Shown here in pieces: positions 48,439 to 60,281 of a stretch of 64,000 bases of DNA; position 1 is the stretch's first letter; each line of letters begins with the position of its first letter. The notes below the pieces were generated by a model. It made no database searches. It was not told the DNA's origin and saw only the letters and a program-made list of their open reading frames with translations. The stretch spans positions 186,001 through 250,000 of the forward strand of contig NZ_BCST01000004.1 in the NCBI RefSeq assembly GCF_001571005.1, in the 5' to 3' direction. This DNA is from Herbiconiux solani NBRC 106740. Its GTDB lineage: Bacteria; Actinomycetota; Actinomycetes; Actinomycetales; Microbacteriaceae. Position numbers and translations under genes: made by a program.

Positions 48439-49650
48439 ATGGTCGATTCGGTATCTCCCGCACTGGCGCGGCGCGTCGCGCTGGCCGCTCAGGGCTTCGG
48501 GGCGCGTGCCTCCGGAGTCGTGCCCGGCACCCGGCAGTTCAAACTGCTGCTGCGCCGGCTGGCCCTGCTGCAGATCGACTCGGTCAACGTCTACGAGCGC
48601 AGCCACTATCAGCCCGTGTTCGCGCGGCTCGGGGCCTTCGACAAGACGCTCCTCGACTCACTCACCTACGGGCGCACGGTCACCGAGTACTGGGCACACG
48701 AGGCCTCCTTCCTCCCACTGGAGACGCTGCCGCTGATGGGCTGGCGGAAAAACGACTACCGCGAGTGGTACCGCACGCATCCCGACTCCTGGGGCGCATC
48801 CAATCAGGGCACGATGGACTGGCTTCGCGCCGAGCTGGCCGCGAAGGGGCCGATGCGGGCGAGCGAGATCGAGCACGAGTCGAACCGTCGGCAGGGGCCG
48901 TGGTGGGGCTGGTCGGACGTCAAGCGGGGGCTCGAGACGATGTTCCGGCAGGGTGACGTCGTGTCGGCCGGGCGGGTGCGCTTCGAGCGGGTCTACGGCC
49001 TGCCCGACCAGGTGCTGCCGAGCGGGCTGCTCGATCAGGCGGTGCCGCGCGAGGAGGCGGTGCGGCAGCTGGTCTCGCAGTCGGCGCGGGCGCTCGGCAT
49101 CGGCACCCTCGGCGAGCTGGCCGATTACTTCCGGTTGAAGACGGTGGATGCGAAGCCCGCGGTCGAGCAGCTGGTCGCGTCGGGCGAGCTCGTGCCGGTG
49201 ACGGTGCCGGGTTGGCCCTCCTCCGGGCTCAGCCGCGACGTCTACCTGCACCGCGACGCGCGGCTGCCGAGGCGGATCGAGGCGGCGGCGCTGCTGTCAC
49301 CGTTCGATCCGGTGGTCTGGGAGCGCGACCGGGCGCTCCGGATGTTCGACTTCCACTACCGCATCGAGATCTACACGCCGCAGCCCAAGCGGGTGTACGG
49401 CTACTACGTGCTGCCGGTGCTGATCGACGACCGCATCCCGGCGCGCATCGACCTGAAGAGCGACCGTCAGGCCGGCATCCTCCGCGTGCAGGCCGCGTGG
49501 GCCGAGCCCTCGCTCGTCCCCGACGACGTCCCCCGCATAGCGTCCCTCCTCCGCGAGGCCGCCGCCTGGCAGTCCCTCCCCAACGGCATAGAGGTAGCCC
49601 CTCGCGGCACCCTGGCGACCGCCTTGGCAGCCGAACTCTCTCGGAGCTAG
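48439..49650 (+). CDS. Winged-helix YcaQ/AlkZ-like DNA glycosylase
   Basis: A 403-residue protein of the HTH_42 (DUF1006) family, which includes interstrand-crosslink DNA glycosylases AlkZ and YcaQ. The catalytic QxD motif (LLQIDSVNVYERSHY) fits the YcaQ branch rather than the QxQ of AlkZ. Tandem winged helices and the FDPVVWERDRALRMFDFHYRIEIYTP strand follow. Predicted to remove N7-alkylguanine and crosslink adducts. ATG 48439 is preferred; the longer frame lacks support. Its last bases overlap the convergent htpX stop by 4 nt. Confidence 0.88.
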   Translation: MVDSVSPALARRVALAAQGFGARASGVVPGTRQFKLLLRRLALLQIDSVNVYERSHYQPVFARLGAFDKTLLDSLTYGRTVTEYWAHEASFLPLETLPLMGWRKNDYREWYRTHPDSWGASNQGTMDWLRAELAAKGPMRASEIEHESNRRQGPWWGWSDVKRGLETMFRQGDVVSAGRVRFERVYGLPDQVLPSGLLDQAVPREEAVRQLVSQSARALGIGTLGELADYFRLKTVDAKPAVEQLVASGELVPVTVPGWPSSGLSRDVYLHRDARLPRRIEAAALLSPFDPVVWERDRALRMFDFHYRIEIYTPQPKRVYGYYVLPVLIDDRIPARIDLKSDRQAGILRVQAAWAEPSLVPDDVPRIASLLREAAAWQSLPNGIEVAPRGTLATALAAELSRS

Positions 49651-50519
49651 AACGACCCACCCATATCGTGCAGGCGCTTGACCCGGTCGGGGATCGGGGG
49701 GTGGGTCGAGAACAGGCGGTCCATGATGCCGGGCTTCATGGGGTCGGCGATCCACATGTGCGACATCGACGACGACTGCTTCTGCATCGGGCGGCCGTAG
49801 GCGGCGAGCTTCTCGAGGGCGCTGGCCAGTGCATCCGGGTGGCGCGTCGTGATCGCACCCGTCGCATCCGCGAGGTACTCGCGCTGGCGGGAGACCGCGA
49901 GCTGCACGACCGTCGCGACGAGCGGCGCGATCAGGATCGCGACGAGGCCGAAGACCATGACGATCGGGTTGCCGTTGTTGTTGTTGCGGCCGAAGAACGC
50001 CATCCGCAGGAACATGTCGGCGATGAAGCCCACCGCGACAACCAGTCCGAAGACGATCATCGAGACCCGGATGTCGTAGTTGCGCACGTGGCCGAGCTCG
50101 TGGGCCATGACGCCCTCGAGCTCCGCGTCGTCCATCAGGTCGAGCAGGCCCGTGGTCGCGGCCACGATCGCGTGCTGCGGGTCGCGCCCGGTCGCGAAGG
50201 CGTTGGGGGCCGGGTCGTCGATGATGTAGACCTTCGGCATCGGTGTGCCGGTCGTGATCGACAGGTTCTCCACGACACGCCAGAGCCGCGGGTTGTCACG
50301 CTTCTGGATCTCGCGGGCGCCGCTCATCGCGAGCGCCTGCCCGCTGGCGGCGAAGTACTGGATCAGCGCGTAGCCGAGCGCCACCACGACCGTGATGATC
50401 ACGATCGACAGGTTGCCGTAGATGTAGCTTGCCAGCCAGCCGAGCCCGCCGATGATCAGCAGGAACAGGGCGATGATGATGACGGTGTTGCGCTTGTTCT
50501 TCGCTATGGCGCTGTACAT
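49647..50519 (-). CDS. htpX: Membrane zinc metalloprotease HtpX (M48B)
   Basis: A 290-residue membrane protease that degrades damaged membrane proteins. The zinc site HELGH is at residues 140-144, with the third ligand Glu in SRQREYLADA. Four hydrophobic segments lie at about 12-32, 36-57, 152-175 and 188-208. ATG 50519. Lies 50 nt after lemA; LemA and HtpX are frequent neighbours. Confidence 0.93.
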   Translation of the reverse strand: MYSAIAKNKRNTVIIIALFLLIIGGLGWLASYIYGNLSIVIITVVVALGYALIQYFAASGQALAMSGAREIQKRDNPRLWRVVENLSITTGTPMPKVYIIDDPAPNAFATGRDPQHAIVAATTGLLDLMDDAELEGVMAHELGHVRNYDIRVSMIVFGLVVAVGFIADMFLRMAFFGRNNNNGNPIVMVFGLVAILIAPLVATVVQLAVSRQREYLADATGAITTRHPDALASALEKLAAYGRPMQKQSSSMSHMWIADPMKPGIMDRLFSTHPPIPDRVKRLHDMGGSF

Positions 50520-50569: not shown

Positions 50570-51139
50570 TCAGAACTGCACGCGCGGCGGCTCGGCGATG
50601 GCGGCGATGTCCGACACCTCGAAGAACTCGCGCTCGGTGAACCCGAGACGACGTGCGAACACGTTGTTCGGGAACTGCTGGATCTTGGTGTTGAGCTCGC
50701 GCACACCACCGTTGTAGAAGCGGCGCGAGGCCTGCACCTTGTCTTCGGTGTCGACGATCTCGGCCTGCAGCTGCAGGAAGTTCTGGCTCGCCTGGAGCTG
50801 CGGGTACGCCTCGGCGACCGCAAAGATGCTCTTCAGCGCGTTCTGCATGTGATTCTCGGCGACGGAGGCCTCGGCCGGCCCCTGGGCCGACAGCGTCTCG
50901 GCGCGGGCCTTCGTGACGTTCTCGAAGACCGCCTTCTCGTGCGCCGCGTAGCCCTTCACCGTCTCGATCAGGTTCGGCAGCAGATCCGCTCGACGCTTGA
51001 GTTGGACGGTGATGTCACTCCACGCCTCGTCGACGCGGATCTTCAGCGTCACGAGCGCGTTGTACGTCGCCCACAGATAGATGCCGACGATCAGGACCAG
51101 AACGACGACGATGATTACCGGGATCAGCCATGCCCACAT
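50570..51139 (-). CDS. lemA: LemA family protein
   Basis: A 189-residue protein with one N-terminal membrane helix (3-25) and an extracytoplasmic/periplasmic four-helix bundle. Family motifs YNALVTLKIRVDEAWSDITVQLKRRADLLPNLIETVKGYA and FYNGGVRELNTKIQQFPNN are intact. Often transcribed with membrane proteases or TPM-domain proteins. Cellular role unsettled. Confidence 0.95.
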   Translation of the reverse strand: MWAWLIPVIIVVVLVLIVGIYLWATYNALVTLKIRVDEAWSDITVQLKRRADLLPNLIETVKGYAAHEKAVFENVTKARAETLSAQGPAEASVAENHMQNALKSIFAVAEAYPQLQASQNFLQLQAEIVDTEDKVQASRRFYNGGVRELNTKIQQFPNNVFARRLGFTEREFFEVSDIAAIAEPPRVQF

Positions 51140-51181: not shown

Positions 51182-51213
51182 GAGGCGTCCTCACAGCATT
51201 CAGGAGGACACTC
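51182..51213 (-). terminator. Probable terminator of the five-gene operon
   Basis: GAG..GTCCTC paired with GAGGAC.CTC around an 11-nt loop, overlapping the GH1 stop codon. Confidence 0.5.
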
Positions 51214-52660
51214 AGCGCGACTCCGCGAGTAGGCGCAGCCACGCGAACGAGTCCTTCGGCTTCCGGGTGAACTCGTCGAAGTCGACGTGCACGATCCCCG
51301 ACCGCCGGGTGAAGCCCGCTTCCCAGCCGAAGTCGTCGAGCAGCGACCGCACGAAGTACCCCCGGAGGTCGACGCCGGCCGAGGCGGCCGCCCCCACCGC
51401 CTCGTCGAGGTGCCGGGCGAGGTAGTCGATCCGCAGCCCGTCGTGCACCCGCGGTGTTCCCGTACCCTCCTCGAGCTCGACGGCATCCGGGAAGCTCACG
51501 CCGTTCGCCGTGACGAACACCGGAGGGAGCGCGCTGCCGTACCGCTCTGCGAGCTCACGCAGGGCGGTGCCGAGGAACTCGGGCGCGATCGGGTCGCCGC
51601 TCCCGCTCGCCGGGTACTCGGGCCAGTCGGCGAAGTGGAACGGGAGGGACGCCATCGCGGCCGACCCGCCGTCCGGCGTCGCGGCCACCCCGGATCCCGC
51701 CGCGATCTTGGTCGGGAAGCGGTAGTTCAGCCCGTAGAAGTCCAGCGGCTGGCCGATCAGCGCGAGGTCGACCGGGTCGGCCTCGGCGAGCGCCGTGAAG
51801 AGCGCTTCGAAGCCCTCGGGCGGCTGCGGATAACGGCCGAGGAGGACGGCGTCGGCGTAGACCCGGTTCTGCAGCACGTCGTACAGCTCGGCGAACGCGG
51901 TGTCCGCATCCGAGTCGGTCTCGGGCACGACGGGCGAGTGCGCGTTGACGATCCCGATGCCGCCCTGCACCCCCGCCGCCCGGAGCGCCTGGACGGCGAG
52001 CCCGTGGCCGAGCAGCTGGTGGTGCGCGACCGGCAGCGCGTTGAACAGCCGGGTCGCTCCCGGGGCGTGCACGCCGATCGCGTGGCCGGCGAAGGTGACG
52101 GTGGCCGGCTCCTCGATCGTGGCCCACCGCCCGATCCGGTCGCCGAACCGCTCCCCCAGCGCGAACGCGTAGTCGCCGAAGCGCAGCGCGGTGTCGCGCG
52201 AGAACCAGCCGGGCCCGAGGGCCGCCGGGGTGTCCCAGTGGAAGAGCGTCGCGAACGAGCGGATGCCGGCGGCATCGAGGCGGTCGAGCAGGCGCTCGTA
52301 GAAGTCGGTCCCGGATGAACGCAGGGCACCTCTGCCCTCGGCCTGCAGCCGGGGCCACGAGAACGAGAACCGGTAGGTGTCGATCCCCAGGCCCTGCATG
52401 AGGGCGACGTCCTCGGGCATCCGGTGGAAGTGGTCGGCCGCGCGGTCGGCCGTCGACCCGTCGGCGATCCGCCCGGCTTCCTGGCTGAAGGCGTCCCAGA
52501 CCGATTCGCCGCGGCCGCCCTCGTGGGTGGCGCCCTCGATCTGGAAAGCGCTGGTCGTCACTCCGAGCTCGAAGCCCTCGGGCAGTCGTCCCCCGAGGTC
52601 GCGGGCGAACGCGCGGCGCTCGTCGGGGGAACCGGCTCCGCTGGTCGTGATCCGGGCCAC
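51212..52660 (-). CDS. Degenerate GH1-family (beta-glucosidase-like) protein
   Basis: A 482-residue TIM-barrel protein clearly of glycoside hydrolase family 1: FELGVTTSAFQIEGA (Q40), DTYRFSFSWPRL, LFHWDTP (H141-W142) and FYGLNYRFP. The catalytic signatures are altered. The nucleophile motif TENG reads VTANG (A385, codon GCG), and the acid/base NEP reads TIEEP (E183-E184). The sugar-binding WSLLDNFEW reads RSLLDDFGW (438-446). Retaining hydrolysis therefore looks impossible; a non-hydrolytic or substrate-assisted role is conceivable. GTG 52660 starts 2 nt after the oxidase stop; last gene of the operon. Confidence 0.9.
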   Translation of the reverse strand: MARITTSGAGSPDERRAFARDLGGRLPEGFELGVTTSAFQIEGATHEGGRGESVWDAFSQEAGRIADGSTADRAADHFHRMPEDVALMQGLGIDTYRFSFSWPRLQAEGRGALRSSGTDFYERLLDRLDAAGIRSFATLFHWDTPAALGPGWFSRDTALRFGDYAFALGERFGDRIGRWATIEEPATVTFAGHAIGVHAPGATRLFNALPVAHHQLLGHGLAVQALRAAGVQGGIGIVNAHSPVVPETDSDADTAFAELYDVLQNRVYADAVLLGRYPQPPEGFEALFTALAEADPVDLALIGQPLDFYGLNYRFPTKIAAGSGVAATPDGGSAAMASLPFHFADWPEYPASGSGDPIAPEFLGTALRELAERYGSALPPVFVTANGVSFPDAVELEEGTGTPRVHDGLRIDYLARHLDEAVGAAASAGVDLRGYFVRSLLDDFGWEAGFTRRSGIVHVDFDEFTRKPKDSFAWLRLLAESR

Positions 52661-52662
52661 CC

Positions 52663-53976
52663 TCAGGCCCCGAGCACGCGGTCGAGGTAGGCGTTGGTGA
52701 AGCGCCGCTCCGGGTCGAGCCGGTCGCGGAGCGCCGCGAAGTCGCCGTGGCGCGGGTAGAGCTGGGCGAGGGAGGCTGCGTCCTGGGTGTGCAGCTTCCC
52801 CCAGTGGGGGCGTCCGGCGTGCTGGTTCATGATCTCCTCGACCGCTTCGAAGTACTCCGTGTGATTCTCCCGGAAGTAGCGGTGCACCGCGATGTACCCG
52901 GTCGCCCGCCCCGTGGCGGTCGAGAGCCAGAGGTCGTCGGCGGCGGCGAAGCGCACCTCGACGGGGAAGGAGATCCGCCAGCCGCGTTCCTGGATGAGGT
53001 CGTCGATCGCGCGGAGCACCTCGGGCACGTCGGCGGCCGGGATCGCGTACTCCATCTCCCGGAAGCGCACGGTGCGCTTGGCGACGAAGACCTCGTGCGA
53101 GTGGTCGGAGAAGTCGCGGTTCGACCAGAGCCGCTCGGCGAGCCGGTTGACCGTCGGGACGACGGCGGGGATGACGGCGCCGACCGCGCAGGTGACCCGG
53201 TAGACACCGTTGGCCATCAGCGTGTCGTCGACGAACGATTGGGCGGCCGGCAGCGGGCGTCGCGCGACGGAGCCGTCGGCTCGGGTGTTGGTCTTGGTGA
53301 CCGCGGTCCCCGTTCCCGGAAACCAGTAGAACTCGAAGTGGTCGCTGCCGTCGACGTGGTCGTCGATCGCCTCGAGCACCTCGTTCATCGGGATCGGGCG
53401 CTCGACGGCCTCGAGCACGAAGGCGGGCACGCACTGCAGGGTGACCTCGACGATCACGCCGAGGGCGCCGAGGCCGAGGGCGGCGGCGGGCAGCAGCTCG
53501 CTGTTCTCCTCCTCGTCGATCCGCAGCAGCTCGCCGTCGGCGGTCACCAGGGTGAGTCCGACGACCTGGGTCGCGATCCCCCCGAAGGCGGTCCCCGTTC
53601 CGTGCGTGCCGGTCGAGATCGCCCCGCTGATCGACTGGCGGTCGATGTCGCCCATGTTCGCCAGGGCCAGCCCGTGCGGCCGGAGGAGCTTCGGCAGCTG
53701 GAACAGGCGGGTGCCGGCCAGGAGGGTCACCCGCCCGCGGTCGCGGTCGACGCCGACGATGCCGGTGAGGTCGTCGAGATCGAGCAGCACCCCGGTCGCC
53801 ACGGCGATCGCCGTGAAGCTGTGCCCGGCGCCGACGGCCTTCACCCGGAGCCCGGCGCGCGCGGCACCGACGACCGCCCGCTGCACGGCGCCGATGGTCG
53901 TGGGGCGCTCGACCCGCACGGGCGTGACGCTCTCGGTGCGGGCCCAGTTGCGCCAGGTGCCGTTGATCGCGGTCAC
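52663..53976 (-). CDS. FAD-linked aldonolactone/alditol oxidase-like protein
   Basis: A 437-residue VAO/PCMH-fold flavoprotein. The FAD domain includes VKAVGAGHSFT, whose H52 is at the position of covalent flavin attachment in alditol and L-gulonolactone oxidases, and ISGAISTGTHGTG. The C-terminal ALO domain has the conserved HWGK (391-394) and the end LDPERRFTNAYLDRVLG. Expected to oxidise a polyol, aldose or sugar lactone with O2 or another acceptor. GTG 53976 overlaps the upstream stop (GTGA). Substrate unknown. Confidence 0.9.
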   Translation of the reverse strand: MTAINGTWRNWARTESVTPVRVERPTTIGAVQRAVVGAARAGLRVKAVGAGHSFTAIAVATGVLLDLDDLTGIVGVDRDRGRVTLLAGTRLFQLPKLLRPHGLALANMGDIDRQSISGAISTGTHGTGTAFGGIATQVVGLTLVTADGELLRIDEEENSELLPAAALGLGALGVIVEVTLQCVPAFVLEAVERPIPMNEVLEAIDDHVDGSDHFEFYWFPGTGTAVTKTNTRADGSVARRPLPAAQSFVDDTLMANGVYRVTCAVGAVIPAVVPTVNRLAERLWSNRDFSDHSHEVFVAKRTVRFREMEYAIPAADVPEVLRAIDDLIQERGWRISFPVEVRFAAADDLWLSTATGRATGYIAVHRYFRENHTEYFEAVEEIMNQHAGRPHWGKLHTQDAASLAQLYPRHGDFAALRDRLDPERRFTNAYLDRVLGA

Positions 53977-55280
53977 AGGAAGGCCTTCCCCTCGCCGCGG
54001 TAGCTCGGCACGACCGCGGTCACCTCGCCGTCCTCCACCACGCAGAACTCGTCCACGTGCTCGGCGAGCTCGCCGGACTTGGTGTGCCGGAACCAGACCC
54101 GGTCGCCGACCCGGAGTGCTGCCGCACCGCGGCCGGAGAGCGGGGTCTGCACCTCGCCCGCCATCTCGCGGGCCTGCATCCGGGTGCCGCGCGGCCACAC
54201 GATGCGGGGCAGCCTGTCCGGGGCGGGAGGGCCGGATGCGACCCAGCCGCCGCCGAGCACGGTCGCCATGTCGGGCCGCGGCTTCCGCACCACCGGCAGC
54301 GCGAAGGCGGCGGCCGGAGCGGGCGTGAACCGCGAGTAGGTGTCGAAGAGGTGCCCTCCGAACAGTCCGCTGCCCGCGGCGACCTCGGTCACCGAGCGGT
54401 CGGCACTCGTCGACTCGAGCGAGCCGGTGCCGCCGCCGTTCACGAACTCGAGATCGGCGAGCTCGCGCACCGCGCGGACGACGGCGCCGCGCCGTTCGGC
54501 CAGCTCACCGGCCGACTGCGACTGCATCCAGTCGATCACCCGGCCGAGCGCCAGCGCCTTCACCGGGTTGCCACCGGGGCGGTTGCCGACGCCGGCGATC
54601 TGCGACTCGTAGGCCATCATCCCGACCAGGGCGAAGCCGGGCCGGGCCAGGATGACGCGGGCCAGCGCGGTCGCCTGCTCGACCGTGGCGATGGGCGACC
54701 GCCAGACCCCCAGCCGGCCGAGCCCGGGGGCGGTGAACGAGGAGTCGAGCTCGATGGCGACCCGCACCGGCGGCCGGGCCGTCGGCGCCACGGCGCTGTC
54801 GATCAGGTCGAGGTGCTCGACCGAGTCGACCATCAGGGTGACCCGTCGGGCGAGCGTCTCGTCGGCGGCGAGCGCGCGAATGGCGGTGCGGTCGGCCGTC
54901 GGGTAGCCGACGACGACGTCCTCGACACCGGAGCCCGCAGACCCGGCGGACCCGCCGTTCTCCTCTGCCGCCAGCCACAGGGCCTCGGGGAGCGTGTAGG
55001 CGAGGATGCCGGCGTACCCGGGCAGCGCGAGCACCGCATCCTGCACCGCGCGCACCCGGATGGACTTGCTGGCGACCCGGATCGGCGTGCCGCCCGCGCG
55101 TTCGAGCATCGAGCGGGCGTTGTGCAGCAGGGCCTCGAGCCCGATGACGGCCACCGGCGGCTCGCGGTCGGCAGTCGCCGCCGTCATCCCGCGCCAGTAG
55201 CGCTGGTCGTCGCGCCAGAGCGCGGGGCCTTCGGGCTGGTCGAGGTCGAGCCGCAGGGCGGCGGGGGTGCTCTCGGTCAT
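53973..55280 (-). CDS. PLP-dependent alanine racemase-fold protein (D-threonine aldolase/deaminase-like)
   Basis: A 435-residue type III PLP enzyme. The N-terminal barrel carries the Schiff-base lysine K72 in RVASKSIR. VNGGGTGSLEST supplies the phosphate-binding loop, and a C-terminal beta domain (GDRVWFRHTKSGELAEHVDEFCVV) resembles the metal-binding part of D-threonine aldolases and eukaryotic-type D-serine dehydratases. Annotators often call such proteins amino acid deaminases; the exact reaction is not predictable. Coupled by 4-nt overlaps to the MFS gene before it and the oxidase after it. Confidence 0.85.
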   Translation of the reverse strand: MTESTPAALRLDLDQPEGPALWRDDQRYWRGMTAATADREPPVAVIGLEALLHNARSMLERAGGTPIRVASKSIRVRAVQDAVLALPGYAGILAYTLPEALWLAAEENGGSAGSAGSGVEDVVVGYPTADRTAIRALAADETLARRVTLMVDSVEHLDLIDSAVAPTARPPVRVAIELDSSFTAPGLGRLGVWRSPIATVEQATALARVILARPGFALVGMMAYESQIAGVGNRPGGNPVKALALGRVIDWMQSQSAGELAERRGAVVRAVRELADLEFVNGGGTGSLESTSADRSVTEVAAGSGLFGGHLFDTYSRFTPAPAAAFALPVVRKPRPDMATVLGGGWVASGPPAPDRLPRIVWPRGTRMQAREMAGEVQTPLSGRGAAALRVGDRVWFRHTKSGELAEHVDEFCVVEDGEVTAVVPSYRGEGKAFL

Positions 55281-56590
55281 CGGACGCTCCTCACGCGCGA
55301 GACGGCTGCCGCGCCAGCGAGCCCGAAGACCGCCGACACGAGGAACAGGGCGGGGAAGCCGCCCATCATGCTGACGATCGCGGCCCCGAGGAGCGGCGCC
55401 ATCGCCTGCGGCACGGCGGTCGCGATGTTCATGATCCCCAGGTCTTTGCCGCGGGAGGCCGGATCCGGCAGCACCTGGGTCGCGAGCGCCTGGTCGACCG
55501 AGAGGAAGCAGCCGTAGCCGAGGCCGAGGAGTCCCGCCGCCACCATGGTGACGGTGAGGTCGGGCACGAACGCAAGCAGCAGTGCTGCGAGCGCCTGCAG
55601 CACCGCGGCGACGAGCACGAACATCCGCCGTCGGGCCAGTTTGTCCGAGAGCGCGCCCGCGACGATCGAGGCGAGCACGACGAAGATCGTGTAGACGACG
55701 ATCAGCACGAGCAGGTCGTCCTCGGCGTTCGGGTCGCGGAGGCCGAACATCAGGAAGTAGAGCAGCAGTGTCGTGCCGAGCGCGTTGCCGATGTTGACCA
55801 GGATGCGGCTGAGCAGGGTCCAGCCGAAATCCGGATGCGCGACGGGGCTGACCCACATCCCCTCGACCAGCGCCTTCAGCGTCAGGGGCGGCCGGTCTCG
55901 CCGGTCGAGCCGCGCATCCGGCATCAGGAGGCAGAACGGCACGACGAGCACGACCAGCAGCACGGCGACGGCCGTGTAGCCGAGGAACTGGCCCGTGAAC
56001 AGGGTCGTCGCCAGCAGCACGCCGAGGATGAGGCCGATCGCCTGGGGCGCCGAGATCCAGCTCGAGACGAAGCCGCGCTGACCGACCGGCACCTGGTCGG
56101 AGATCGTGGCCGTCAGGGCGGCGGAGAGGATGCAGAAGCCGACGATCGCGAGGGTCCACCAGATCCCGACGCCGACGAGGCCGTCCTGGAGGCCGAGGAG
56201 GAAGAGGGAGACGGCGAACAGCAGCGCTCCCCCGGCGATCCAGGGGCGGCGGCGGCCGAAGCGCGAGGTCGTGCGGTCGGAGAGGGCACCGGTCACGGGG
56301 AAGGCGATCAGGGCGAAGACGCCGGCGATCGCGGAGATGACGCCGAAGGCGACGACGTTCTCGGTCCAGGAGGCGGCTTCGAGGTGCTGCTCGACCTGCA
56401 GCGGGAGGAGCAGCTGGATAGGAGTGAGCTGCGCCATCCAGATGCCGAGCCAGGCGGCCCCGAAGAGAGCGATCCACCCGCCCCCGACGCGCCGCACCGG
56501 TTCGGCGAGCGCCTCCGGCGCGCTAGTGGCGGCCGTGGCTTCTTTGGGAGCCTTGGCGTCCCTGGCGTCGCCGGGCGTCACGGCGCTCAC
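55277..56590 (-). CDS. MFS transporter (sugar-symporter-like)
   Basis: A 437-residue twelve-helix transporter. The inter-helix 2-3 motif GALSDRTTSRFGRRRPWIAGG resembles the sucrose/SLC45 and glycoside-cation symporter group within MFS, which suggests a sugar or glycoside, though this is only suggestive. The second-half repeat GALSDKLARRRMFVL is also present. ATG 56590 overlaps the TetR stop by 4 nt. Likely supplies or exports the compound handled by the downstream enzymes. Confidence 0.87.
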   Translation of the reverse strand: MSAVTPGDARDAKAPKEATAATSAPEALAEPVRRVGGGWIALFGAAWLGIWMAQLTPIQLLLPLQVEQHLEAASWTENVVAFGVISAIAGVFALIAFPVTGALSDRTTSRFGRRRPWIAGGALLFAVSLFLLGLQDGLVGVGIWWTLAIVGFCILSAALTATISDQVPVGQRGFVSSWISAPQAIGLILGVLLATTLFTGQFLGYTAVAVLLVVLVVPFCLLMPDARLDRRDRPPLTLKALVEGMWVSPVAHPDFGWTLLSRILVNIGNALGTTLLLYFLMFGLRDPNAEDDLLVLIVVYTIFVVLASIVAGALSDKLARRRMFVLVAAVLQALAALLLAFVPDLTVTMVAAGLLGLGYGCFLSVDQALATQVLPDPASRGKDLGIMNIATAVPQAMAPLLGAAIVSMMGGFPALFLVSAVFGLAGAAAVSRVRSVR

Positions 56591-57327
56591 GCCCGGCTCC
56601 CGGACGCGTCGGCGGCCCCTCTGGGGTCGACACCCCCCACGACTGCCCTCGACCCGTCAGTTGTTGTCACTATTCCGGCCGGATAGCGACCAGAAGTGAC
56701 GGATCGAGGACCTTCGGTGGGGCGGGCCGGGGCGGGGTGGGCCTCGGCGGCGAGGGCCCGGGCGGCGAAGGCGATGGTGGCACGGGCACGGACGTCGTCG
56801 CCGTCGGCGAGCCAGGCGAGCACGATGCCGTCGGTGAGGGCGACCAGGTCGGCGGCGAGCTGTTCCTCGGGGCGGGCCCACGTGCATCCGGTGGCCGTCG
56901 ACGCCTCACGGAGCGACGCCTCGGCGAGCGCACGGTACCGGGCGTACTGCCGGGCGGCGACCCCGGCCATACCGGGGGTGCGCATCGCGTACTGGGTCAG
57001 CTCGAACATCGCCCGCTCGCGCTGCGGGTCGGCGCGCACCTGGTCGAAGAAGCGGAGGAGCCCGAGTTCGATCAGCCCGGCGAGGTCGGCACCCGGCGCG
57101 GCGGCCGGCACGTCGAGCACGACCTCCTGGTTCTCGACCACGACGTCGACCAGTTGCGCCAGGAGCTCCTCCCGCGAGCGGAAGGCGTAATGGAAGCTGG
57201 CGAGCTTCATGCCCGCCTCGTCGACGACGGCCCGGGTCGTGGCCCCGGCGACCCCGGCGCGGGCGATCACGGCGAAGGCGGCGGCGAGCAGGCGTTCACG
57301 GCGCTCGGTGACCGGCATGTGCGGCAT
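56587..57327 (-). CDS. TetR family transcriptional regulator
   Basis: A 246-residue regulator. The N-terminal helix-turn-helix (residues ~10-56: LLAAAFAVIARAG, TTRAVVDEAGMKLASFHYAFRSREELL) is followed by a helical ligand domain. The tail beyond residue 200 is Pro/Gly/Arg-rich and longer than usual. ATG 57327 has GAGAGGAA upstream; the frame extends to 57996 only as shadow. First gene of the five-gene operon, so probably autoregulated, with a candidate operator at 57450-57460. Confidence 0.88.
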   Translation of the reverse strand: MPHMPVTERRERLLAAAFAVIARAGVAGATTRAVVDEAGMKLASFHYAFRSREELLAQLVDVVVENQEVVLDVPAAAPGADLAGLIELGLLRFFDQVRADPQRERAMFELTQYAMRTPGMAGVAARQYARYRALAEASLREASTATGCTWARPEEQLAADLVALTDGIVLAWLADGDDVRARATIAFAARALAAEAHPAPARPTEGPRSVTSGRYPAGIVTTTDGSRAVVGGVDPRGAADASGSRA

Positions 57328-57542: not shown

Positions 57543-60281
57543 GTGTCGGCATCAGAGAACGTGAAGGATCGAGCGCCGTCGCGGCCCCGTGACGGCGCCG
57601 CCGGGCGACTCCCGGGGCGGCAGCGCGGGCTCCCGATGCACGGGCTCCGGATGCACGGAATCCGGCCCTCCGCGCGGCCCGCCGGTCGGCTCGCCGCCGC
57701 GCTGCTCGTCGCGGGACTCGCGGTCGCCGGCTGGGCGGTACCGAGCGCGGCGAGCGCCGCCGGGATGCCGAGCGAGGCGACGGCCACGACCGGCACCGGC
57801 ACCGCACCTGCCGATACCGGCATGGCACCCGCAGAGACCGGGTCCGGATCCGGATCTGCGGCCAGCGGCACCGCGCCCGCAGACGCCGACACGGCACCCG
57901 CGCCCGCCCCGTCGTCGGCTCCCGCCCCTGACGAATCCGCACCGGCGCCTCCCCCGACGACCACGCCGCCCGCCGACCCGGCGCCCCCGCCTGCACCCGT
58001 CATCCTCTCGCCCGCCGCCGGCACGCTCGTCTCCGACTCGGTCCTGGTCAGCGGCACCGCCGCGCCGGGCTCCGAAGTGCAGATCCTGGTCGGCTCCGCC
58101 TCCGAGCCCGACTGCATCGTGGCCCCCGGCGCCGATGGTGCGTGGTCGTGCCAGGTCACGGGCCTCGCCTCCTCGCCCTCCACCCTCGTCCGTGCGGTCG
58201 CGCTCACCGCAGGCGCCGATCCCGTCAGCACCTCCGTGACGGTGAAGGTGCTCACCGCACCAATCGTCACGGGCGGCCCCCGCGGAACCCTCACCAACGC
58301 GGTCGTGCAGGGCAGCGCCTTCCCCGGCGCCACCGTCACCGCCACCGCGGCCGGCTATTCCTGCGCCGGCACCGCCGACGGCTCCGGCGCCTGGTCCTGC
58401 CCCCTCGGCGGAGGCATCACCGACGGCCCGTACCAGGTGACCGCGACGCAGTCCACGACCTGGAGCGGCGGCACAGCCTCCCCCGCCAGCAGCCCGCTCG
58501 CGATCGTGGTCGACGTGACCGTGCCGCCCGCCCCGGTGCTCCGGTCCCCCGCCTCGGGCACGGCGGTGAGCACATCCGGAGCCGTCTTCTCCGGAACGGG
58601 CGAGAACGGCGCGACCGTCTCGGTCTTCGCCGGGGCCCACGTGCTCTGCGACACCCCCGTCTCCGGTGGCACCTGGTCGTGCGTCTCGGCGGCGATCCCG
58701 GCCGGCAGCTACTCGCTGGCCGTGCTGCAACAGGATGCGGCGGGCAACGTGAGCGTGCAGAGCGGGCCGCTCACCCTGGTCTTCCAGGACCCGGGCTCGC
58801 CCGCGACACCCGCACCCGGACAGCCGGGGTCGACCCCGGTGCCCTCCTCGACGACGGGCCCCTCGACGACGACTCCCGGATCCGACGGTGCCGTGCCGCC
58901 CGGTGGCAGCGCGGGGTCGGGGTCGGGGTCGGGCGGTGGCTCCGGTGGCGGTAGTGGTGGTGGCAACGGGGGTGGCGACTCCGGCGGGGCGCCGGGCACC
59001 GCGCCGACGGCCCCCGGGCAGGATACGGTCATCCCGCCCGGCACACCCTTCCAGACCCCCGGCACCTGGACCGACGCGACCCGCTTCACCTCCGCGGTGC
59101 TGCCCATGCTCGGCGCCGGAGCGGGCGGGCTGCTCTGGGTGGCACTCCTCGTCGCGGTGCTCGCGCTCCTGCTCGTCGCGCTGCCCGCGCGGCTGCTCGG
59201 CCGCGCCGTGGCCTCGCTCGGCGTTCTCGGACGCGGTGCGGTGCACGGCGGAGCCCCGCACGGCGCTCGCCCGGGCAGCGCACGGCCGAACAGCGCACGG
59301 CCGAACAGCGCACGACCGGACGACAACCGACCCACCAGTGCACGACCGGACAGCGACCGGTCTCGGCCCGCCGCCGAAGACCCCGCAACCGGCCCGGTCG
59401 TCATCGCCGCCGCTGCGGCCGCCGTGACCGGCTGGACAGACCGCTGGTTCGGCCGCAACCGCTCCCGGCACGAGTACGACGCCGCTCCCGAGGTGACACT
59501 GAACCCGGTCGTCCGGGCCGGAGCCGCCGTCCTCGCTGCCGCCGCGATCATCACCCTCTCCGGGCCCGTGCTGGGGCAGCCGGCGTACCTGCGCCTGTTC
59601 CTCGCGGTCGTCGCGGCGGTCGTCGTGGTGAACCTGGCGGCCACGGCGCTGCCGGCGCTCCTCGCCCGCCGGTTCTTCGCCATCTCGTCGCGCGTGCGCA
59701 TCCGCCCCTCCCTCCTCCTCGTCTCGATCGCCCTGGCCCTCGTGTCGCGGCTCGCCGACCTCGAACCGGCGCTCGTGTTCGGTCTGGTCGCCGGGATGCT
59801 CGTGGTGCCGCCGTCCGCCGACGAGCAGTCGCGCGCATCCCGAGCCGTACTCACCGCGGCGCGAGGGAAGCTCGCGGCGGTGCAGATCCTCTGCCTGATC
59901 GCCCTGGGGGCCGTGGCGTGGCTCGTCTCGACCGCCCTCGGCGGCGCCACCGGCTCACCCGAGCTGTGGATCGCGGCGGCGGCGGAGTTCAGCAACGTGA
60001 TCGTGCTCGCCTCGTTCGGCTCGGCCTCGGTGCTGCTGGTGCCGGTCGCGCGCTCCAGTGGCCGGCGGCTGTTCGACTGGTCGCCGGTCACCTGGGCGCT
60101 GCTGGCACTCTGCGCGTTCGGCGGGCTCGCGCTGCTGTTCCTCTCCGGGCTCACGACGGTCGGGGCGGCGGGAGCGGTGCTGCCGCTGGTGCTGGCCGCC
60201 GGGTTCGCTGCTCTCAGCCTGTCGGTCTGGGCCTGGGTGCGTTTCATCGCTGTGCCGGACGAGGACGAGGACCAGGACTAG
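57543..60281 (+). CDS. Large exported Ig-repeat protein with polytopic membrane C-terminus
   Basis: A 912-residue protein of unfamiliar architecture. It has an Arg-rich N-terminus and signal-like helix (50-72), then an Ala/Pro/Thr linker. About three bacterial Ig-like repeats follow (~150-237, 238-327, 328-415), each ending in a GxWSC pattern. A Gly/Ser/Thr/Pro linker (415-510) precedes a first membrane helix (~520-545), a cytoplasmic ARP-repeat loop (~570-630), and about seven more helices ending in an acidic tail DEDEDQD. Possibly a surface-sensing or adhesion module coupled to a membrane domain. Start uncertain (GTG 57543 or 57561). No recognised family for the C-terminal half. Confidence 0.8.
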   Translation: MSASENVKDRAPSRPRDGAAGRLPGRQRGLPMHGLRMHGIRPSARPAGRLAAALLVAGLAVAGWAVPSAASAAGMPSEATATTGTGTAPADTGMAPAETGSGSGSAASGTAPADADTAPAPAPSSAPAPDESAPAPPPTTTPPADPAPPPAPVILSPAAGTLVSDSVLVSGTAAPGSEVQILVGSASEPDCIVAPGADGAWSCQVTGLASSPSTLVRAVALTAGADPVSTSVTVKVLTAPIVTGGPRGTLTNAVVQGSAFPGATVTATAAGYSCAGTADGSGAWSCPLGGGITDGPYQVTATQSTTWSGGTASPASSPLAIVVDVTVPPAPVLRSPASGTAVSTSGAVFSGTGENGATVSVFAGAHVLCDTPVSGGTWSCVSAAIPAGSYSLAVLQQDAAGNVSVQSGPLTLVFQDPGSPATPAPGQPGSTPVPSSTTGPSTTTPGSDGAVPPGGSAGSGSGSGGGSGGGSGGGNGGGDSGGAPGTAPTAPGQDTVIPPGTPFQTPGTWTDATRFTSAVLPMLGAGAGGLLWVALLVAVLALLLVALPARLLGRAVASLGVLGRGAVHGGAPHGARPGSARPNSARPNSARPDDNRPTSARPDSDRSRPAAEDPATGPVVIAAAAAAVTGWTDRWFGRNRSRHEYDAAPEVTLNPVVRAGAAVLAAAAIITLSGPVLGQPAYLRLFLAVVAAVVVVNLAATALPALLARRFFAISSRVRIRPSLLLVSIALALVSRLADLEPALVFGLVAGMLVVPPSADEQSRASRAVLTAARGKLAAVQILCLIALGAVAWLVSTALGGATGSPELWIAAAAEFSNVIVLASFGSASVLLVPVARSSGRRLFDWSPVTWALLALCAFGGLALLFLSGLTTVGAAGAVLPLVLAAGFAALSLSVWAWVRFIAVPDEDEDQD
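59276..59355 (+). repeat. 15-bp coding tandem repeat
   Basis: Three good and two degenerate units of CAGCGCACGGCCGAA encode SARPN-type repeats in the loop after the first membrane helix of the Ig-repeat protein. Confidence 0.8.

Follow-up and report, generated by a model that had tools for sequence, protein, structure and literature searches.

An operon-encoded GH1 protein of Herbiconiux solani lacking its catalytic nucleophile: a probable pseudoenzyme with a proposed non-catalytic role

The origin of pseudoenzymes is often sought in gene duplication. In family GH1, the Klothos are animal GH1-like co-receptors, membrane-bound or secreted, with a protein-binding role, while plant myrosinase is an enzyme with an altered catalytic residue in which the nucleophile is kept and the acid/base lost. 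Among bacterial GH1 beta-glucosidases, Cba3 of Cellulomonas biazotea (8znv/8znw) is the solved structure nearest to the protein examined here, with the same fold and a full-length match at 47-48% identity. One account describes Klotho proteins as resembling beta-glucosidases (PMC4950547), and another presents the pectin-digesting pseudoenzymes of beetles as glycoside hydrolase pseudoenzymes kept by evolution and tied to gene duplication in multigene families (PMC6549527). We analysed a stretch of 64,000 nucleotides from Herbiconiux solani NBRC 106740 (contig NZ_BCST01000004.1, positions 186,001 to 250,000 of the forward strand; hereafter the window), which carries on its minus strand, from 57327 to 51212, a five-gene operon for a TetR-family regulator, a major facilitator superfamily (MFS) transporter, a pyridoxal phosphate (PLP) protein, an FAD sugar-lactone/alditol-type oxidase (ALO) and a GH1 protein, with coordinates and junctions re-read from the sequence. 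A previous sequence-only reading had proposed that the altered GH1 serves as the working glycosidase of the operon through a route requiring no nucleophile. Our comparisons favour another explanation, to which we give a probability of roughly two in three, namely that the window GH1 is a pseudoenzyme retained because of a function other than catalysis, probably one that the active enzyme shares. Among the papers listed in literature searches, none deals with this operon or with bacterial GH1 pseudoenzymes, which is not proof of their absence from print.

The altered GH1 and the usual occupant of its slot

The GH1 gene (51212..52660, minus strand, GTG start) encodes 482 amino acids, of which residues 25-480 give a full-length match to PF00232 (379.9 bits; cut-off 22.6), placing the product in the GH1 fold family. 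Its score against the NCBIfam equivalog TIGR03356 (428.2 bits) lies under the cut-off of 478.5, and carries little weight alone since the canonical orthologs were unscored. An AlphaFold2 model (pLDDT 89.2, pTM 0.91), whose best match in the PDB is Cba3 (8znw/8znv; TMt 0.95), predicts a full-length (beta/alpha)8 TIM-barrel protein with an intact fold.

The GH1 is altered, as the sequence-only reading had noticed, and its nucleophile is replaced: the TENG motif has become TANG (E385A, leaving A385), while the acid/base glutamate E184 is retained within a motif changed from NEP to EEP (N183E). Among 97 sites invariant in 15 Herbiconiux and 27 other canonical orthologs, the window GH1 retains 84 and changes 13 (N183E, L190F, L195I, Y314R, L343F, F354S, W356D, E385A, W438R, N443D, E445G, Q452R and F454S), when each of the 15 other Herbiconiux alters only 0-2 such sites in a leave-one-out comparison. 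At sites invariant in canonical clusters, the other four proteins of the window operon show no change at all (TetR 0/27, MFS 0/139, PLP 0/116, ALO 0/102). Predicted secondary structure places N183, Y314, E385 and W438 at, or adjoining, the C-terminal ends of strands 4, 6, 7 and 8, and C-terminal strand ends form the catalytic face of such barrels. The aligned residues show that the window GH1 has lost both its nucleophile and a large part of the pocket around it. Sequencing error was rejected as the cause by the 13 separate invariant-site changes within an open frame, and decay of the whole operon by the other four proteins, unchanged at their invariant sites.

Among 299 genomes of the family, a PLP homologue was found in 153 and some GH1 match in 230; GH1 regions were fetched by score, with every listed match down to about 445 bits and then a selection of lower ones, covering part of these 230 genomes. 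Each of the 31 loci that were read whole and whose slot contains an intact GH1 keeps both catalytic glutamates (NEP, or NEA in L080, and TE[NGSTI]G; L numbers denote fetched loci and g numbers genera) and has PLP and ALO alongside. A canonical GH1 is also carried by all 15 other genomes of the window's genus group (n = 16), and the closest named relatives of the window GH1 are Herbiconiux proteins at 73-74%. A normal GH1 thus usually fills that slot beside the oxidase and PLP genes, a finding that the sequence-only reading had itself listed as contrary to its proposal. The locus counts omit canonical GH1s encoded off the locus (L083-L085, L089-L091, L096, L097, L250-L252 and L258), of which L083-L085 were nevertheless included among the 27 other canonical rows of the invariant-site comparison. 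The operon association further omits L076 (short contig) and L259 (canonical, at a contig edge) and counts L092 as one locus; L001, L141 and L198 were dropped, L141 and L198 being without a readable motif.

The GH1 does not always accompany the oxidase, as PLP and ALO are present with no GH1 within the fetched stretch at L088, L098-L104 and L253-L257. In genus g2, the canonical GH1 of the clade (L083, L084, L085) is encoded away from the locus, together with an MFS gene of its own (38-39% to the window MFS), and the operon locus (L088, L253, L254) retains PLP and ALO without a GH1. Two tandem GH1 genes occupy the operon slot in L092 (5010-7812, minus strand), both with the two catalytic glutamates and one with N312Q. 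Elsewhere in the window's genome, a short C-terminal GH1 fragment lies in a 124-amino-acid frame (G000:C2:333765-334061).

Repeated degeneration and selection among relatives

Parsimony on the protein tree revealed five origins of degenerate GH1, at least four of which are forced by strongly supported branches: the window, g8 (L062, L070, L073, L076), g78 (L071, L079, L078, L086, L087), g84 (L081, L093) and g45 (L094, L095). L245-L249 were found after this tree and are absent from it; L247 and L248 belong with g84, L245 and L246 with g45, and L249 likely represents a sixth origin. The L249 gene (5772-6977, minus strand; g77) encodes a strongly degenerate GH1 between the Big-domain and LemA genes and has lost about 50 residues near its N terminus; the four other members fetched from its genus (L052, L053, L055, L056) have a complete operon with a canonical GH1. 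The idea of a single degenerate gene, inherited in common or transferred, was rejected because of these origins and because the window copy falls within Herbiconiux on the tree.

When each origin was represented by one copy, picked by the analyst, 10 sites were changed in at least three of the five (random draws, 20,000: mean 1.69, maximum 9) and 7 sites in at least four (random maximum 4); 70 of the 97 sites were untouched in all five. Twelve of the 13 window changes coincide with sites among the 26 at which the remaining four representatives are altered (hypergeometric p = 1.5e-7), the thirteenth being E445. Given these shared sites and the unchanged state of the other four operon proteins, the alignments indicate that the changes in the window GH1 are not random decay. 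The residues that replace the lost ones are another matter. The nucleophile has become A, G, S, L, V or T in different degenerate copies, the residues replacing N183, Y314, E385 and W438 differ both between and within degenerate clades, and E184 itself is lost in several. Because the replacements of the nucleophile differ in this way, no alternative catalytic set is conserved, and a conserved new set was rejected.

The degenerate GH1 has also parted from its pathway genes. Eleven loci (L078, L086, L087, L093, L094, L095 and L245-L249) carry it in fetched stretches that contain neither PLP nor ALO, so that the altered GH1 does not always travel with the oxidase, a point on which the sequence-only reading had suggested a check. 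In all 11 the GH1 adjoins the Big-domain gene, and in 5 LemA is adjacent as well; the solo gene lies divergently beside this gene for a Big-domain (Ig-like) protein, because the other four genes were lost. These genomes are all missing from the 153 in which PLP was matched, by a first-pass search that scores few candidates, and ALO, sought genome-wide in that of L078 (G078) alone, gave no match there. PLP and ALO remain at seven degenerate loci, counting the window, and L076 is truncated. PLP and ALO are thus absent from 11 degenerate loci against 0/31 with an intact GH1 at the locus (Fisher p = 1e-6, for loci that are not independent). Since degenerate copies with PLP and ALO exist in g78 and g84, the loss of catalysis probably preceded that of the operon in these two clades. 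An oxidase-dependent route is not what keeps the 11 solo GH1s, because no oxidase or PLP gene lies in the stretches fetched there.

The ratio of non-synonymous to synonymous substitution rates (omega) was estimated with a purpose-written branch-model codon likelihood. Within the degenerate clades it was 0.101 in g8, 0.069 in g78 (0.063 for its trio of operon-less members), 0.058 with two sequences and 0.043 with four in g84, and 0.016 with two sequences and 0.036 with four in g45, with omega = 1 rejected in each. Data simulated on three of these sets (g8, the g78 trio and g45; four runs each) returned 0.88-1.21 for a true omega of 1 and 0.25-0.34 for a true value of 0.3; because they recover the input, the low values in these three sets are not a product of saturation. 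Omega is not above background in the g78 trio, g84 or g45, and the tip leading to the window GH1 has an omega of 0.055, equal to background, with 0.045 for the ALO control (one topology, with several weak branches). Degenerate copies persist across species in g45 (4 genomes), g78 (5) and g84 (4). By these codon estimates, the degenerate clades remain under purifying selection and, as clades, qualify as pseudoenzymes.

Operon layout, family assignments and neighbouring genes

All five genes lie on the minus strand. The first (56587..57327) encodes a TetR-family regulator of 246 amino acids, with PF00440 and PF13977 above cut-offs, followed by the MFS transporter gene (55277..56590, GTG start; PF07690 and PF13347 above cut-offs), the gene of the alanine-racemase-fold PLP protein (53973..55280; PF01168, 37.2 bits against a cut-off of 24.1) and the ALO gene (52663..53976, GTG start; PF04030, PF01565 and TIGR01679 above cut-offs). 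The TetR/MFS, MFS/PLP and PLP/ALO junctions are 4-nucleotide overlaps, and a 2-nucleotide gap separates ALO from GH1. A TetR tail of about 45 residues past the family matches (window 56590-56735) runs into the MFS start and has similar counterparts in 7 related loci, where the TetR frame also stops shortly before the MFS homology, as judged by homology with MFS start codons unchecked. This tail region also contains a GTCAC...GTGAC inverted pair around TCCGGCCGGA.

Upstream, a divergent Big-domain protein gene (57543..60281, plus strand), located in relatives by tblastn with the window protein, is a conserved neighbour, Big_13 having been seen on its L078 homologue. Downstream, LemA-family and M48 genes (51139-49647, minus strand) flank the operon and are conserved neighbours too; the LemA-family gene (50570..51139; tblastn) has an L078 homologue on which PF04011 was seen, and the second (49647..50519; tblastn) encodes what we take, from its sequence, to be an M48 (HtpX-like) metalloprotease. 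The order Big-domain, TetR, MFS, PLP, ALO, GH1, LemA, M48 and a presumed winged-helix gene recurs across genera of the family, with some loci missing at least one gene. The co-occurrence check suggested by the sequence-only reading thus upheld its view of a tightly packed operon and showed conservation well beyond chance, since many genera share this gene order at a single place on the chromosome. In a class-wide PLP search, ALO lies within 1.5 kb in 18 of the 29 best loci other than the window's own, 11 of these 18 in the window's family and 7 outside it, and PLP and ALO are, from their distribution in these genomes, an older pair.

The oxidase exceeds both cut-offs (TIGR01679, 427.4 against 292.25 bits; PF04030, 265.8 against 23.1) and is placed in the ALO/alditol oxidase group by its TIGR01679 score. 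Glycoside-pentoside-hexuronide (GPH) symporter models match the MFS transporter below cut-off. The PLP protein scores 30.9 bits against the NCBIfam equivalog for the 3-hydroxy-D-aspartate aldolase BhcC, far under its cut-off of 690, and a PDB sequence search with it returned no relative. Its C-terminal part (window 53973-54100) reads RHTKSGEL where D-threonine aldolases have a metal-binding HCD at the corresponding position, so that the metal site looks to have been replaced. For the intact operon, though not for the window's version, it is reasonable to guess that a beta-glycoside is imported, cleaved by the canonical GH1 and oxidised.

Readings of the altered protein and comparison with known systems

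The preferred explanation supposes that the operon GH1 has two jobs: it would supply the PLP/oxidase pathway by hydrolysing a beta-glycoside and, independently of that pathway, would act without catalysis as a binding or scaffold protein through the surface of its barrel. Once hydrolysis was no longer needed, the pocket would erode and the rest of the protein would be kept. For this second role, a protein-protein partner in the cytoplasm appears most likely and is favoured over a sugar sensor: the residues replacing the catalytic ones differ between lineages, making the binding of a partner at the surface likelier than binding in the pocket. Residues common to canonical and degenerate copies and rare in generic GH1s, candidates only, are Q106, T187, V188, L216, G233, Y309, P316, R318, A359 and R482.

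Several observations weigh against a retained pseudoenzyme. Some copies classed as degenerate keep catalytic glutamates, namely L095 and L246, which have E385 but not E184, and L062, which has both yet lost other pocket residues; because L062 keeps the nucleophile, its loss in g8 came later than the clade ancestor. Canonical clade members without adjacent PLP or ALO also exist off the locus (L083-L085, genus g2). Synonymous divergence is high in several branches, and the simulations covered g8, the g78 trio and g45. The other adverse points converge on slow decay, an unlikely account but the strongest rival, in which a change of diet made the GH1 useless, catalysis was lost first and the gene is heading for loss, the window copy being perhaps a recent example. 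Omega rises above background in g8 (0.053 to 0.101, p = 2e-5), in g78 (0.044 to 0.069, p = 0.009) and in L249 (0.058 against 0.035; likelihood-ratio statistic 10.9), so that some relaxation is real. L249 is also the copy missing about 50 residues, and L093 alters 24 of the 97 sites, both in and outside the pocket, the most of any degenerate copy. The window copy is the sole degenerate one in 16 Herbiconiux, and it may have died recently, because its omega, taken on one long tip, pools the periods that preceded and followed the loss. The open frame alone is weak evidence in DNA this rich in GC, since under neutral simulation the tips tried acquired an average of only 0.7-2.6 stops, with a minimum of 0. 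Decay is opposed by an omega of 0.036-0.10 over long post-loss branches, where neutral simulations give about 1, by the holding of degenerate copies across species in three genera, and by the clustering of changes on the same sites in each origin.

A second alternative, less probable again and overlapping with the pseudoenzyme explanation, is a cytoplasmic sugar or metabolite sensor that would keep the O3/O4 half of the pocket, lose the anomeric side and bind a C1-modified sugar without cleaving it. It draws on the retention of Q40, H141 and W446 in nearly all degenerate copies, and of E445 too except in the window and L248, residues that contact the sugar in GH1 structures. E445G in the window copy and the change of W142 in g45 and part of g84 speak against it, and the retained residues may be structural. 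The proposal of the sequence-only reading, an enzyme whose pocket was rebuilt for a reaction that does without a glutamate nucleophile (hydrolysis assisted by the substrate, or elimination acting on a keto-sugar that the oxidase makes), is improbable: E184, still present in the window protein and in some other degenerate copies, the three residues retained nearly throughout and two arginines in the window pocket would suit it, but the usual occupant of the slot is normal, the replacements vary between and within clades, E184 is lost in several copies and 11 loci keep the degenerate GH1 without the oxidase and PLP genes.

Returning to the pseudoenzyme explanation, we advance only tentatively, and with somewhat less confidence than the retention itself, a broader picture in which the non-catalytic function would be under lasting selection, catalysis would have disappeared on some five or six separate occasions, and the pseudo-glycosidase would have outlived the whole pathway in several lineages, as a bacterial counterpart of Klotho evolving in situ and not from a spare duplicate. 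An operon's own glycosidase gene repeatedly altered and kept points to a hidden second function in a textbook enzyme family, for which the parallel degenerate lineages are ready-made replicates. It is also a warning that GH1 genes in operons should not be annotated as beta-glucosidases without a check of the nucleophile.

Unlike Cba3-type GH1 beta-glucosidases, the window protein is without the nucleophile glutamate and several conserved pocket residues. It is the reverse of myrosinase, with the acid/base kept and the nucleophile lost. Compared with the beetle pseudoenzymes, it is here the operon copy itself that was altered, and not a duplicate in a multigene family. The resemblance to the Klothos lies in a GH1-like fold joined to a proposed binding role, and is meant as a likeness of working only, kinship not being claimed beyond the family level; compared with them, the window GH1 is bacterial, has no export signal recognisable by eye, and belongs to a set altered repeatedly at one operon slot.

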